Shown: one piece after another, positions 5,452 through 17,137 of the stretch
Numbering within the stretch: position 1 is the stretch's first letter
Layout: each line of letters opens with the position of its first letter
Source of the DNA: an uncultured Spirochaetaceae bacterium
GTDB lineage: Bacteria; Spirochaetota; Spirochaetia; Treponematales; UBA12059
Direction of reading: 5' to 3'
NCBI GenBank assembly: GCA_938004315.1
Contig: CALKWG010000457.1
Span: 1 to 17,137, forward strand
Length of the DNA stretch: 17,137 bases
Made by a program: the position numbers and the translations under genes
Notes under the pieces: generated by a model
What the model was told of the DNA's origin: nothing
Databases searched by the model: none
The model's input: the letters and a program-made list of their open reading frames with translations, nothing else

Positions 5452-6513
5452 ATGATACGCGTAGACGGACTCTGCAAGACTTTCAAAGCGCCCAAGCGCT
5501 TCCCGGGCCTCCGCGGCGCCGTCAAGGGCCTCTTCAGCCGCGAGTATACCTATACGACCGCGGTGGACGACGTCAGCTTCAGGATAGCCGAGGGCGAGGT
5601 CGTCGGCTACATCGGCGCGAACGGCGCCGGCAAGTCCACCACCATCAAGATGATGACCGGCATCCTCACGCCGAGCGCCGGCCGCGTAACCGTGGCGGGC
5701 GTCGTACCCTACGAGAACCGCATGCTCAACGCCTCGCGGATCGGCGTGGTCTTCGGGCAGCGGACCCAGCTCTGGTGGGACCTGCCGGTGAGCGAGAGCC
5801 TGTCACTGCTCCGCGACATCTACGAGGTCAAGCCGGCCGAATACCAGGAGCGCCTGGCCTTCTTAAACGGCGTCCTCGAGCTGGACGAGTTCATGATGAG
5901 CCCGGTGCGCACGCTCTCCCTAGGCCAGCGCATGCGCGCCGACCTGGCCGCCTCGCTCATCCACCGACCCAAGGTGCTCTACTTGGACGAGCCGACCATA
6001 GGCCTGGACGCCATCGTCAAGGAGCGCGTCCGCGGCGCGGTCAAGGAGCTCAACCGCTCGTACGGCACCACCATCGTGCTCACCACGCACGACCTGGCCG
6101 ACATCGAGGAGCTCTGCCGGCACATCATCGTGATCGACCGCGGCCGCAAGGTCTACGACGGCACCTTGCCCGAGCTACGGGCGGCCTACGGCCGCGGCCG
6201 CACCATCCGCGCCCACATCGCCGGCTTCGCCTCCTTCGACCCCGCGGCCCTGGACGCGGCGCTCAAGGCCCTTGACCCCGGCGCGTCGGCGCGCAAGGAG
6301 GCCGACGAGCTCGTCGCGCGCTTCGACGCGTCGGCCACGGGCATAGCCAAGGTGGTCCAGGCGCTCATGGCCGCCTGCGAGATCGCCGACTACACCGTCG
6401 AGGAGACGCCGATCGAGGACATCGTGAAGCGCATCTACGCCGAGGCCCGCCGCGACGTCGTCGCGGGCGACTCGGTCGCGGGCGACCCCGCCGCGGCCGC
6501 CGGGAGGATCTGA
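5452..6513 (+). CDS. ABC-2 type exporter, ATP-binding subunit (COG4586-like)
   Basis: This 353-residue ATPase energises the two permeases encoded next. Walker A is at 55-63 (GANGAGKST), the Q-loop Gln at 103, the signature is LSLGQ at 155-159 in place of LSGGQ, Walker B is VLYLDEP at 175-181 and the switch His is H213. The extended N-terminus (AVKGLFSREYTYTTAVDDVSF) and a C-terminal tail of about 110 residues are typical of the COG4586 group. Relatives pair with COG4587 and COG3694 permeases and are annotated as exporters of drugs or unknown substrates; the cargo here is not deducible. GAGGAG at 5441-5446 sets the start. The stop TGA overlaps the next ATG by one base, and a GGAGGA site for that gene lies inside this one, so translation is coupled. 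Confidence 0.92.
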   Translation: MIRVDGLCKTFKAPKRFPGLRGAVKGLFSREYTYTTAVDDVSFRIAEGEVVGYIGANGAGKSTTIKMMTGILTPSAGRVTVAGVVPYENRMLNASRIGVVFGQRTQLWWDLPVSESLSLLRDIYEVKPAEYQERLAFLNGVLELDEFMMSPVRTLSLGQRMRADLAASLIHRPKVLYLDEPTIGLDAIVKERVRGAVKELNRSYGTTIVLTTHDLADIEELCRHIIVIDRGRKVYDGTLPELRAAYGRGRTIRAHIAGFASFDPAALDAALKALDPGASARKEADELVARFDASATGIAKVVQALMAACEIADYTVEETPIEDIVKRIYAEARRDVVAGDSVAGDPAAAAGRI

Positions 6514-7358
6514 TGGCCGGCCTACGACGCTACCTGGCCTTCACCCGCAACAGCTTCGCCCGCATCCTGTCCTACCGCGCCACGGTGCTCATGTACGTGC
6601 TCGGCGGCATGACCCAACCGCTCATCCTCTTCTTCCTCTGGCGCGCGGTCTTCGCCGGGGCGGGCGCCGCCGAAGGCGGAACGGCGGCGGGCGGCGCGGC
6701 GGGAACCGTCATCAACGGCTTCAGCTTCCCCCAGATGGTCGGCTACCTCCTGTTCACCGTGCTGGCCGGCTCCCTGATCTACGGCAACGCCGACGAGGTC
6801 ATCGCCAACGAGGTGATGGACGGCTCCATAGCCATGAACCTGGCCCGGCCGCTGGATTATCGCCGCCGCATCTTCTTCGACCACCTGGGCGAGGTGCTCT
6901 ATAACTTCATAGCCATAGGGCTACCCGCTTTAGCTTTAGTCTTCGTCGTCCTGGGCTCGGCGGGACGCTTCCCCTCGGCCGCGAATCTGGCCCTAGGCGC
7001 GCTATCGCTGGCCATGGCCTTCTTCCTGAACTTCTACTACCGCTTCAGCTTAGGCCTCATGGCCATGGTCACCACCAACATGTGGGGTCTCACGCGGCTC
7101 GAGGCGGTGGTGGCCAACTTCCTCTCCGGCGCGCTCATACCCCTGGCCTTCTTCCCCGTCTGGGCGCGGGAGGCCGTTCAGTTCCTGCCCTACGCGTCGC
7201 TCGTGTACGCGCCGGCCATGGCCTTCCTGGGCATGCTGCGCGGCGCCGAGCTCCTGCGGCTCCTAGCCGTGCAGGCGGCTTGGGTCCTCGCCTTCAGGGC
7301 GCTCTCCGGCGCGGCCTGGCGGGGCTTGACCCGGCGCCTGGCCATCAACGGAGGCTGA
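6513..7358 (+). CDS. ABC-2 family exporter permease subunit (COG4587-like)
   Basis: This 281-residue inner-membrane protein has about six hydrophobic segments. Family features are the N-terminal amphipathic stretch ending in YRATVLMYVLGG, the cytoplasmic region EVMDGSIAMNLARPLDYR and the LSGALIPLAFFPVW segment followed by LPYASLVYAPAMAFLG. An Ala/Gly/Thr-rich insertion of about 20 residues near position 50-70 in the first external loop is unusual and looks like low-complexity expansion. It probably forms a heterodimer with the product of 7364-8152. The start is fixed by GGAGGA at 6503-6508 and the one-base overlap with the ATPase gene. Confidence 0.88.
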   Translation: MAGLRRYLAFTRNSFARILSYRATVLMYVLGGMTQPLILFFLWRAVFAGAGAAEGGTAAGGAAGTVINGFSFPQMVGYLLFTVLAGSLIYGNADEVIANEVMDGSIAMNLARPLDYRRRIFFDHLGEVLYNFIAIGLPALALVFVVLGSAGRFPSAANLALGALSLAMAFFLNFYYRFSLGLMAMVTTNMWGLTRLEAVVANFLSGALIPLAFFPVWAREAVQFLPYASLVYAPAMAFLGMLRGAELLRLLAVQAAWVLAFRALSGAAWRGLTRRLAINGG

Positions 7359-7363
7359 AGCTC

Positions 7364-8152
7364 ATGCGCTATCTACGGCTCTACTTAAAATACAACGCCC
7401 AGAACGTCAAGTCGCTCATGTCGTATAGGGCGGACTTCCTCATGGGTTTCTTAGGCTTCCTGGGGAACCAGCTCTTAGGCGTAGCCTTCATCGGCTTCCT
7501 CTTCTCGGCCATCCCCTCGCTAGCCGGCTGGTCGTTCGACGAGATCCTCTTCATTTACGGCTTCGCCCAGTTGCCGCGGGGCCTGGACCACGTCCTGACC
7601 GATAACTTCTGGATCCTGGCCTGGCGCATGGTGGCCAAGGGGGAGTTCGACCGCTTTCTCCTGCGCCCCCTGCCGCCGCTCTTCCAGCTGGTGGCGGATC
7701 GCTTCCAGCCCGACGGCTTCGGCGAGCTCGTCGCCGGCGTAGCGGTGCTGGCCATAGCTTGGGGGAGGCTCGGCCTAAACATAAGCTTCGGCCGCCTGGC
7801 GGCGCTCGCGATCGCCGTGACGGCCGGCTTCTTCATCTACGCCGGCGTCAAGCTGGCCCTGGCCTCGCTGGCCTTCTGGGTCAAGAACTCGCAGGGCTAT
7901 CTCTTCATGGCCTATAAGGTCGGCGACTTCTCCATGTACCCCGTGGGCGTCTTTCCCAAGGCGCTGCGCTTCGTCATGAGCTTCATCCTGCCCTTCGCCT
8001 TTACCGCCTACTATCCGGCGGCGGCCATCCTGGGACGGGAAAGCATGGCGCTCGGCCTGGGCGGCTCGGTCCTGGCCGCCGCGGCCGCCTGCTTGGTCGC
8101 TTCATTGGCCTGGCAGTCCGGCCTTAAGGCCTACGAGAGCGCGGGGAGCTGA
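7364..8152 (+). CDS. ABC-2 family exporter permease subunit (ABC2_membrane_6, COG3694-like)
   Basis: This 262-residue inner-membrane protein is the second permease of the exporter. Signature stretches are SYRADFLMGFLGFLGNQ, GEFDRFLLRPLPPLFQL on the cytoplasmic side, YKVGDFSMYPVGVFPKALRF and FILPFAFTAYYPAAAILG. About six membrane segments are visible. The ATG at 7364 is chosen because GGAGG lies 9 bases upstream and the protein begins with the typical MRYLRLYLKYNAQN; the frame stays open to 7082 but that extension is the shadow of the previous gene. It is five bases after the previous stop, so all three genes form one operon. Confidence 0.9.
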   Translation: MRYLRLYLKYNAQNVKSLMSYRADFLMGFLGFLGNQLLGVAFIGFLFSAIPSLAGWSFDEILFIYGFAQLPRGLDHVLTDNFWILAWRMVAKGEFDRFLLRPLPPLFQLVADRFQPDGFGELVAGVAVLAIAWGRLGLNISFGRLAALAIAVTAGFFIYAGVKLALASLAFWVKNSQGYLFMAYKVGDFSMYPVGVFPKALRFVMSFILPFAFTAYYPAAAILGRESMALGLGGSVLAAAAACLVASLAWQSGLKAYESAGS

Positions 8153-12071: not shown

Positions 12072-12476
12072 TTAAGCGCCGGCTACCCAGTTCTCCATAG
12101 AAAGACCTTCTATATCGGAAAAATCAACCTCGTTATTGGTCACGAGGACGCGCCCGCTCGCCATGGCCTGGGCGGCGATCAGCGTATCGAAGCGATTCCG
12201 CCCGAGCGCCTTCCTCGCGTTCCGTATGCGGCCGTACTGCCTAGCCGCCGCGGCGTCGAAGGGCAGGGCCGGAACGAGGCGCAGGAAGGCGTCGAGCTGC
12301 CGCCGCCTCGAAGAAGCCAGCGTAGGATCGGCGTCGGCCCCATGCTCCAGTTCGGCCAAAGTAATGGCCGATATGAAGACGTCGCCGACGCGCAGGGCCT
12401 CGAACCTACGCCGAACTTCGGGCGGCTGACGCTTCATAAGATAGATGCAGATATTCGTATCGAGGATATATTTCAC
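12072..12476 (-). CDS. vapC: PIN-domain toxin, VapC family
   Basis: This 134-residue ribonuclease is the toxin of a type II toxin-antitoxin pair. The acidic metal-binding residues of PIN domains are present: D6 in LDTN, E42 in TLAELEHG, D97 in NRFDTLIAA and D119 in TNNEVDF. VapC enzymes usually cut tRNA or rRNA; the target is unknown here. The start is GTG 12476, whose GTGA overlaps the antitoxin stop by four bases, the usual coupling for such pairs. Its codons (for example the AT-rich first dozen) are less GC-biased than in neighbouring genes, in keeping with lateral transfer. Confidence 0.92.
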   Translation of the reverse strand: MKYILDTNICIYLMKRQPPEVRRRFEALRVGDVFISAITLAELEHGADADPTLASSRRRQLDAFLRLVPALPFDAAAARQYGRIRNARKALGRNRFDTLIAAQAMASGRVLVTNNEVDFSDIEGLSMENWVAGA

Positions 12477-12703
12477 CAGGCCCGCTCCCGATCGAGGTCC
12501 TCTTCGCGGCCGCCTTCCATGAAGGCTTCGTCGAATTCAGCCAACAGATCCAAGAAACCCGAAAGGCTTTCGGCCACCGGCGTAATGACGATACTATCGC
12601 CGCGGCGCTCGATCTCCACCGTCGAGCCCGGCTCGATCGGCCACAAGGCTTTAGGTATCCTCACGGCCGCCGAATTGCCGGACATGAAAATTTGCGTCTG
12701 CAT
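12473..12703 (-). CDS. vapB: AbrB/MazE-type antitoxin, VapB family
   Basis: This 76-residue antitoxin starts with the swapped-hairpin DNA-binding motif MQTQIFMSGNSAAVRIPKAL seen in VapB/MazE proteins, followed by an acidic C-terminal tail (FDEAFMEGGREEDLDRERAW) expected to wrap the toxin. It should neutralise the downstream VapC and repress the pair by binding its own promoter. The ATG is fixed by GGAGG about 6 bases upstream. The operator candidate at 12714-12731 lies directly before that site. Confidence 0.92.
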   Translation of the reverse strand: MQTQIFMSGNSAAVRIPKALWPIEPGSTVEIERRGDSIVITPVAESLSGFLDLLAEFDEAFMEGGREEDLDRERAW

Positions 12704-15502: not shown

Positions 15503-16117
15503 ATGTCAGACCAAACCAAGGCGCGCATACTGGAAGCGGCCGGCGCCATCTTAAAGCGCCAAGGCCCCGAGCGCCTGACCGTCGAGGCCGCCGCCGACCT
15601 GGCGGGCGTCAGCCGTAAGACCGTCTACAATCACTTCCCCAACCGCTTCGCCCTGATCGACGAGGCGACGACGCAGTGGGCCGAGCGGACCATCGCCGCG
15701 CTCGAGCTCGTGGCCGGCGACGAATCGCTGGGCTTCATCGAGCGGCTCAACACCATCGTCGAGCGCGGCTTCGCCGAGCTCCGCTCGGGCGGCTGCCTGG
15801 GGGCCGAGCCCCCGGCCGCCCGCGAGGCCGGCCCCGAGGAGGGCGTGCGTCGCGCGCTCCGCGCCAAGCTCCGCGCGTTCATCGAGGGCATCGTCAGCCA
15901 GGCGCGCGCGGCGGGCCTCGTGCGCGAGGACTTCGAGCCGCGTCGCCTGACCTGGGTCCTGGTGAACGTCGTCGAGGGGCTCCTCTTCATCGACGAGCCC
16001 GAGGACGAGCCCTTCGCCCGTTTCGACATCCTGCGCGACTCGCTGCGCGCGGTGCTCGGCGGCGTCCTGACGGAGGACGGCGAACGCGCCCTGCGCGGCT
16101 CGCCGATATACGCATGA
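15503..16117 (+). CDS. TetR/AcrR family transcriptional repressor
   Basis: This 204-residue repressor has an N-terminal helix-turn-helix at residues about 26-46 (TVEAAADLAGVSRKTVYNHFP), the invariant TetR pattern, followed by an all-helical ligand-binding and dimerisation domain with VNVVEGLLFID near the end. It probably represses its own operon through the dyad at 15412-15449 and is released by a compound that the efflux system exports (inference). GAGGAG is about 8 bases before ATG 15503. The stop overlaps the next start as ATGA, so regulator and efflux protein are coupled. Confidence 0.93.
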   Translation: MSDQTKARILEAAGAILKRQGPERLTVEAAADLAGVSRKTVYNHFPNRFALIDEATTQWAERTIAALELVAGDESLGFIERLNTIVERGFAELRSGGCLGAEPPAAREAGPEEGVRRALRAKLRAFIEGIVSQARAAGLVREDFEPRRLTWVLVNVVEGLLFIDEPEDEPFARFDILRDSLRAVLGGVLTEDGERALRGSPIYA

Positions 16118-17092
16118 AGGCGCTCCGCTGGCTCGTCCCCATCGCCATCGTCGCGGCCGCCGGCGCGCTGCGCGTCTTGGCGCCTAAGCCGGAGGCGGCC
16201 GCGGCCCTGCCGCCGCTACCCGTACGCGTTACCCGCCCCGAACGCGGCGACCTGACGGAGGCTCTGCGCCTGAACGCCCACGTCGAGTCGGAGAGCATGG
16301 TCACGGTGCTGCCCCTAGTCTCGGGGGTCATCCAGGATCTCTTCGTAGACGCCGGCAGCCGCGTGAAGAAGGATCAGATCATCGCCCGCATCGACGCTGC
16401 GCGTTTCGAGCTGCAGCTCAAGCAGGCCGAGTCGGCCTATTTCTCTTCCAAGTCTACCTATGAGCGCGTCGCCCAGCTGTACCGCGCCGCCGCGACCAGC
16501 CAGCAGAACTACGACCAGGCCAAGGCCCAGTACGAGGCCTACGCCTCCCAGTACGAGCTGGCCAGGCTGCAGCTGGGCTACGCCTCGGTGAAGAGCCCGG
16601 TGGACGGCGTCGTGCTCATGAAGCATCTCTCGGTCGGGGCGCTGGCCGCGCCCGAGCGCCCCCTGGTCACCATTGGGGATCTGGGGCAGCTGGTCCTCCG
16701 CGTACGGGTGCCCGAACGCCACTATGCGGCCTTCCTAGCCGGCATAGGGATCATGCCCATAGCCGTAGAGGACGCCTCGGGCCGTCGCTACGCCGGGCGC
16801 TTACGGACCGTGAGCCCCTTCGTCTCGGCCGAGAGCAAGAGCTTCGAGGCCCTCGTAGCCATAGAGGGCGATACCGAGACGCTTCGCCCCGGCATGTTCG
16901 TCGGGGTGGAGTTCGAGCTGGCCCGCTGGGTAGCTGTCTTGAGCCTGCCCTACGAGGCGCTCTCCGGCGACGGCCGGGTCTGGTTCGTCGAGGGCGACGC
17001 GGCCCGATCGGAGGCCTATAGGCCGAGCGCCGGCTCCGCCTCGCGCTTCGTCGTGCCGGAGGCCTGGGCCGAACGCGCAGTGATCGTCGAAG
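16114..17092 (+). CDS. RND efflux membrane-fusion protein (HlyD/AcrA-type), 3' end missing
   Basis: The genomic part gives 326 residues of a periplasmic adaptor that joins an inner-membrane RND pump to an outer-membrane channel. A signal/membrane anchor occupies about residues 5-23 (no lipobox). The first half of the barrel-sandwich domain is VSGVIQDLFVDAGSRVKKDQIIARID; an alpha-hairpin follows (LQLKQAESAYFSSKSTYERV through YELARLQLGYA); the second half is VKSPVDGVVLMKHLSVGALAAPERPL; then a beta-barrel ends in LRPGMFVGVEFEL. Most of the membrane-proximal domain is present, so only a short tail seems missing. The apparent C-terminus I-G-R-A-H-V and stop (17093-17115) is translated adapter and must be removed. 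The pump gene would be expected next, beyond the window. Confidence 0.92.
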
Positions 17093-17137
17093 AGATCGGA
17101 AGAGCACACGTCTGAACTCCAGTCACCGAATACGATC
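17093..17137 (+). other. Illumina sequencing adapter with index: artefact, not genomic
   Basis: From 17093 the sequence is the 34-base TruSeq read-1 3' adapter (it opens AGATCGGAAGAGCACACG and ends CCAGTCAC at 17126). Then come an 8-base index CGAATACG (17127-17134) and ATC, the first bases of the flanking P7 segment. The match is exact. The 3' junction could shift by a base or two if the genome shared the first adapter bases. Confidence 0.98.

Follow-up and report, generated by a model that had tools for sequence, protein, structure and literature searches.

An untrimmed TruSeq-type adapter, almost certainly left by read-through, gives an efflux gene at the tip of a spirochaete contig a false end

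The final 45 bases of the window, by which we mean the whole 17,137-nucleotide stretch analysed here (contig CALKWG010000457.1 from an uncultured Spirochaetaceae bacterium, assembly GCA_938004315.1), raise the question of whether the unusual C-terminus and the short reverse-strand ORFs found at this contig tip belong to the organism or to the sequencing library. Our analysis indicates that these bases are, almost beyond doubt, a TruSeq-type adapter, an index, and the start of P7, left by the untrimmed read-through of an insert ending at 17092. The tail of the window reads ...GTGATCGTCGAAG/AGATCGGAAGAGCACACGTCTGAACTCCAGTCAC/CGAATACG/ATC, in which AGATCGGAAGAGCACACGTCTGAACTCCAGTCAC, the TruSeq-type adapter, occupies 17093-17126 and is identical at 34 of 34 positions. 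This 34-mer has a single match in the whole window, even when up to three mismatches are allowed, and gave no match in any of 200 shuffles at the same tolerance. The earlier note had read the 45 bases as TruSeq adapter, 8-base index, and P7 start and had proposed their alignment with adapter sequences; aligned with the oligos printed in the matching passages of PMC6791352 and PMC10251645, 17093-17137 contains an exact match, and the reading is borne out. In those passages, PMC6791352 gives the iTru stub oligo as /5Phos/GATCGGAAGAGCACACGTCTGAACTCCAGTCAC and the i7 primers as CAAGCAGAAGACGGCATACGAGAT + 8-base tag + GTGACTGGAGTTCAG, and this primer layout, once reverse-complemented, matches the final 26 bases of the window at all 18 fixed positions; the excerpt of PMC10251645 uses the same 34-mer for read trimming.

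The adapter lies on the + strand at the very tip of the window and points outward (17093-17137). Because the ligated oligo starts with G (17094), A17093 is likely the non-templated dA-tail added ahead of adapter ligation, as library chemistry suggests. The closing ATC represents only three bases of P7, by itself a weak match (1 in 64), and is assigned to P7 because of its position after the index slot. The first 13 bases of the TruSeq read 2 adapter are common to the window sequence at 17093, and 12-base seeds of TruSeq read 2, Nextera, P5, and P7 were found nowhere else in the window. As an index, CGAATACG was not found in a printed index list among the literature matches listed.

Table 1. 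Coordinates of the genes, the adapter components, and the false coding features in the window.
Feature	Position	Strand	Basis
ABC transporter ATPase gene, then two ABC2_membrane_6 permease genes	5452-8152	+	
PIN-domain (VapC-like) gene	12072-12476	-	toxin-antitoxin pair
MazE-type antitoxin gene, overlapping the PIN-domain gene	12473-12703	-	toxin-antitoxin pair
TetR-family regulator gene	15503..16117	+	Pfam TetR_N, E 8.3e-10
RND efflux periplasmic adaptor (MFP/HlyD) gene, genuine part, 326 codons, true 3' end missing	16114..17091	+	Pfam HlyD_D23, E 1e-20
Second false ORF, MLFRSL..., 118 aa, start codon within the adapter	16751..17107	-	ORF list
False ORF, MCSSDL..., 102 aa, start codon within the adapter	16801..17109	-	ORF list
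Last gene-fitting base, first of the conserved Gly codon	17092	+	GGN in relatives, GAG here
False C-terminus E-I-G-R-A-H-V and stop TGA (17113-17115)	17092..17115	+	translation
Likely dA-tail A	17093	+	stub oligo begins GATCGG (PMC6791352, matching passage); trimming sequence AGATCGG... (PMC10251645, matching passage)
33-base TruSeq/iTru-type adapter oligo	17094..17126	+	exact match
Putative 8-base i7 index CGAATACG	17127..17134	+	fits the 8-base tag position in the i7 primers
ATC, the three opening bases of P7	17135..17137	+	agreement with the layout

The gene that runs into the adapter allowed the break to be placed to the base. Its start is overlapped by the stop of the TetR gene at ATGA, and its product carries the HlyD_D23 barrel-sandwich domain, so that the earlier description of an "RND" efflux gene stands as regards efflux but not as regards the pump itself, the product being a periplasmic adaptor (MFP). 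A protein search that scored 7,999 candidates found 198 homologues, of which 120 were listed, those with an organism name being mostly from Spirochaetota. Together with the spirochaete MAG titles of the five closest loci in a genome scan, this makes a spirochaete the likely source of the window. Pairwise checks revealed a glycine directly after the last genuine residue (Glu326) in 119 of these 120 listed homologues, the sole exception (P0067) being a protein that ends earlier; a first alignment of 17 of the 120 had shown the glycine in all 17. At the DNA level, 15503-17092 matched five of five related genomes in pieces at 63-79% identity, and the junction codon in the related loci (L121-L125) was GGC, GGT, GGA, GGC, and GGC, that is, GGN in all five. 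In the window, the codon at 17092-17094 is a hybrid, G followed by AG, with one genomic base and two artefact bases. Genomic homology of the MFP gene ceases at 17092/17093, and the break is placed between these two bases because of the glycine in the homologues and the GGN codon in the five loci. The best homologue among the 120 listed of the 198 (P0001, 353 aa) is identical at 315 of 326 residues (97%) and extends 27 residues from the junction glycine to its end; across the listed homologues, this distance ranges from 11 to 48 residues, with a median of 20. Of the 11 residues that differ from P0001, three are among the final seven ahead of the junction (gene at 16114-17091); either sequence errors at a thinly covered tip or natural variability of this stretch could explain them.

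The gene order of the window recurs in L123, a locus of a Spirochaetales MAG (G003), in which a 3-hydroxyisobutyrate-dehydrogenase type gene, an adenosine-specific kinase gene, TetR, and MFP follow one another; the first two proteins are 71% and 79% identical, respectively, to those of the window. Downstream of its MFP gene, L123 carries an ACR_tran RND pump gene (E 3.8e-221) and, after one intervening ORF, a TolC-like OEP gene. By analogy with relatives, the MFP gene would run on past the end of the window for approximately 20 to 27 codons, and genes for an RND pump and a TolC-like protein would be expected to follow. Elsewhere, the window holds an ordinary toxin-antitoxin pair on the - strand (12072-12703).

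Translation across the junction yields a false protein end, which the earlier note had given as I-G-R-A-H-V with a stop at 17113-17115. The stop is where it was said to be, but the false tail is seven residues long (EIGRAHV) because the codon at 17092-17094 mixes one genomic base with two artefact bases. Similarly, the - strand ORF beginning MCSSDL at 17109 is present as described but is not the only one, since two reverse ORFs start within the adapter. A Pfam scan of the 102-aa ORF gave no match at E 0.01, and neither GRAHV nor any of eight further adapter peptides occurred in the 120 listed homologues (of 198). Six adapter-derived peptides had no match in the literature searched, and the matches listed from a search that also took in the index contained no such peptide. 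The false C-terminus and the short reverse-strand ORFs at this tip are thus most likely not biology.

Many other contigs, viral ones among them, have tips of the same kind. The 34-mer was found in at least 120 loci of viral_contigs, with 121 occurrences among those listed, and in 120 of the 121 it pointed outward with no more than 250 bases beyond it (at least 120 loci), a distance counted up to where the locus ends; the contig ranges show that each cut locus reaches the contig end. The internal case is L013, with 1,257 bases past the adapter. Among the matches listed, 58 of 68 viral tails of at least 20 bases showed 5-11 bases followed by ATCTCGTATG; in the first 80 loci, 80 of 81 occurrences were near the end, and 39 of 47 tails had an index-length stretch and then ATCTCGTATG. 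Neither the full 45-mer with the index of the window nor the 22-mer across index and P7 had a match in viral_contigs, which indicates no more than that this particular index was not encountered in that set. Coding features similar to the false ones of the window were counted at a threshold of at least 60 codons: in 64 of the 121 listed viral occurrences, such an ORF entered the adapter on the forward strand, and in 70 of 121 one started inside it on the reverse strand, both counts standing without a clean-tip control.

In bacteria, four of the 394 genomes in the class to which G003 belongs (L169, L170, L171, and L172) carried the untrimmed adapter, in all four pointing outward and lying no more than 38 bases from a contig tip, and the tail of L170 had the same layout as the window, 8 bases and then ATC; the adapter pattern read backwards occurred in none of the 394. 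Megablast of the 45 bases matched none of 72,556 plasmid records, 2 of 5,426 E. coli genomes, and 16 of 50,697 phage records, 14 of the latter at 99% identity or more over approximately 30 to 40 bases. The distribution of the 34-mer is the behaviour of a trimming artefact and not of a cellular element. Among the deposited phage genomes with a match (H1-H3, H5, H7-H10, H12-H16), several carry it no more than 100 bases from an end; the set includes a record of MS2 and a RefSeq record of a Vibrio phage. In four phage records (H4, H7, H9, and H16), the adapter lies well inside. The two E. coli records (NZ_AP046542.1 and NZ_AP040990.1; H17 and H18) are complete chromosomes with the adapter deep inside, where no feature is annotated. 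In Stenotrophomonas phage vB_SmaS_Bhz63 (OR797046.1; L167 1565-1599), the adapter sits inside an annotated 'hypothetical protein' adjoining a phoP-like gene, and neither flank was matched by other phage records at megablast level; the site may be a chimeric junction between phage and bacterial DNA. The internal copies in L013, in these four phage records, and in both E. coli chromosomes speak against a purely terminal rule and would fit chimeric joins.

The record of Staphylococcus phage Andhra (KY442063.1), deposited as complete, carries the adapter at both ends (L166 301-355 and L168 394-447), with its index slot filled by ACAGTG and with the P7 start following at the right end, and NC_047813 has the same left-end match. 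These adapters belong to stretches annotated as repeat regions, 14-168 and 18380-18534. The terminal inverted repeats of Andhra are given as 155 nt, from an Illumina MiSeq run, in the matching passages of PMC5362749; the two ends have in common 113 nt of phage sequence and a further 42 nt made up of adapter, index, and AT, which add up to 155, and the published repeat therefore contains 42 adapter-derived nt. A search with the 113 phage bases returned 20 records, including two of Andhra itself. In Pike, Pontiff, PSU3, and S-CoN_Ph33, the last of the 113 bases coincides with a terminal base of the record, and most of the remaining matches lie a few bases from a record end or align part of the query; S-CoN_Ph31 has the full match approximately 890 bases inside the record, and S-CoN_Ph9 has a partial internal match. 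The adapters in the Andhra record appear to mark real genome ends of the phage. No mention of an adapter was found in the passages of PMC11476376, PMC9710869, and PMC5362749 that the searches returned.

Several readings of the window end compete with untrimmed read-through. If the gene truly ended in EIGRAHV and the 45 bases were genomic, the natural C-terminal variant would account for the open frame and for the stop at 17113-17115; set against this are the complete identity of the 34-mer with a synthetic oligo, the glycine found at the junction in all but one of the listed homologues, the absence of GRAHV and the eight other adapter peptides from all of them, and the lack of plasmid matches together with the mere two matching E. 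coli genomes, and we regard the variant as having practically no probability. An internal chimera, in which fragments were joined through the adapter and the window was cut within it, with unrelated real sequence past 17137, has precedents in L013, in the four phage records, and in the two E. coli chromosomes with internal copies. Nevertheless, the listed viral occurrences, with that one exception, and all four carriers in the class of G003 have the adapter near a tip, and a window end falling three bases into P7 by chance would be a coincidence, which makes such a chimera very unlikely. From the Andhra adapters, which appear to mark real genome ends, one could also suppose by analogy that the DNA in the cell physically ended at 17092, at a recurrent break or a replicon end, rather than being sheared there at random; this supposition is exceedingly improbable.

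Untrimmed read-through, as the preferred reading, would work as follows: a sequencing read would have run through a short library insert whose end is base 17092, and its assembly without trimming would have placed the adapter at the contig tip. The tip would then be the end of the read itself, and the insert would have been approximately 105 bases long if the reads were 150 bases. The earlier proposal that the contig ends in untrimmed adapter and not at a biological boundary is upheld by homologues whose glycine and C-terminal stretch are replaced by adapter in the window, by the terminal and outward position of the 34-mer elsewhere, and by the lack of a match in the plasmid records.

The tail of the window is an ordinary artefact, worth trimming and of little interest as biology. 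Adapter-bearing tips do, however, yield gene ends and small genes that look plausible but are false, and with the adapter-derived part of the Andhra repeat such an artefact has reached print. Trimming and screening of contig tips should come ahead of any call of a C-terminal motif, a terminal repeat, or a small gene.

Compared with known systems, the truncated gene resembles the RND periplasmic adaptors (MFP/HlyD) of Spirochaetota, being 97% identical to P0001 over 326 residues and 55-63% identical to the five closest loci, which come from spirochaete MAGs; it differs in lacking the C-terminal residues (27 in P0001), in place of which it has adapter-encoded ones. The contamination itself recalls the assemblies described in PMC4511556, which reports PhiX contamination in microbial isolate genomes and, in its matching passages, names adapters among the sources. 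In both cases, laboratory sequence ends up in deposited genomes, although the window has a short terminal adapter rather than a control genome. Relative to Illumina TruSeq/iTru i7 adapter read-through, the window shows just three P7 bases and an index found in no viral contig, whereas the oligo, the index slot, and the P7 start all stand in the right order and orientation.
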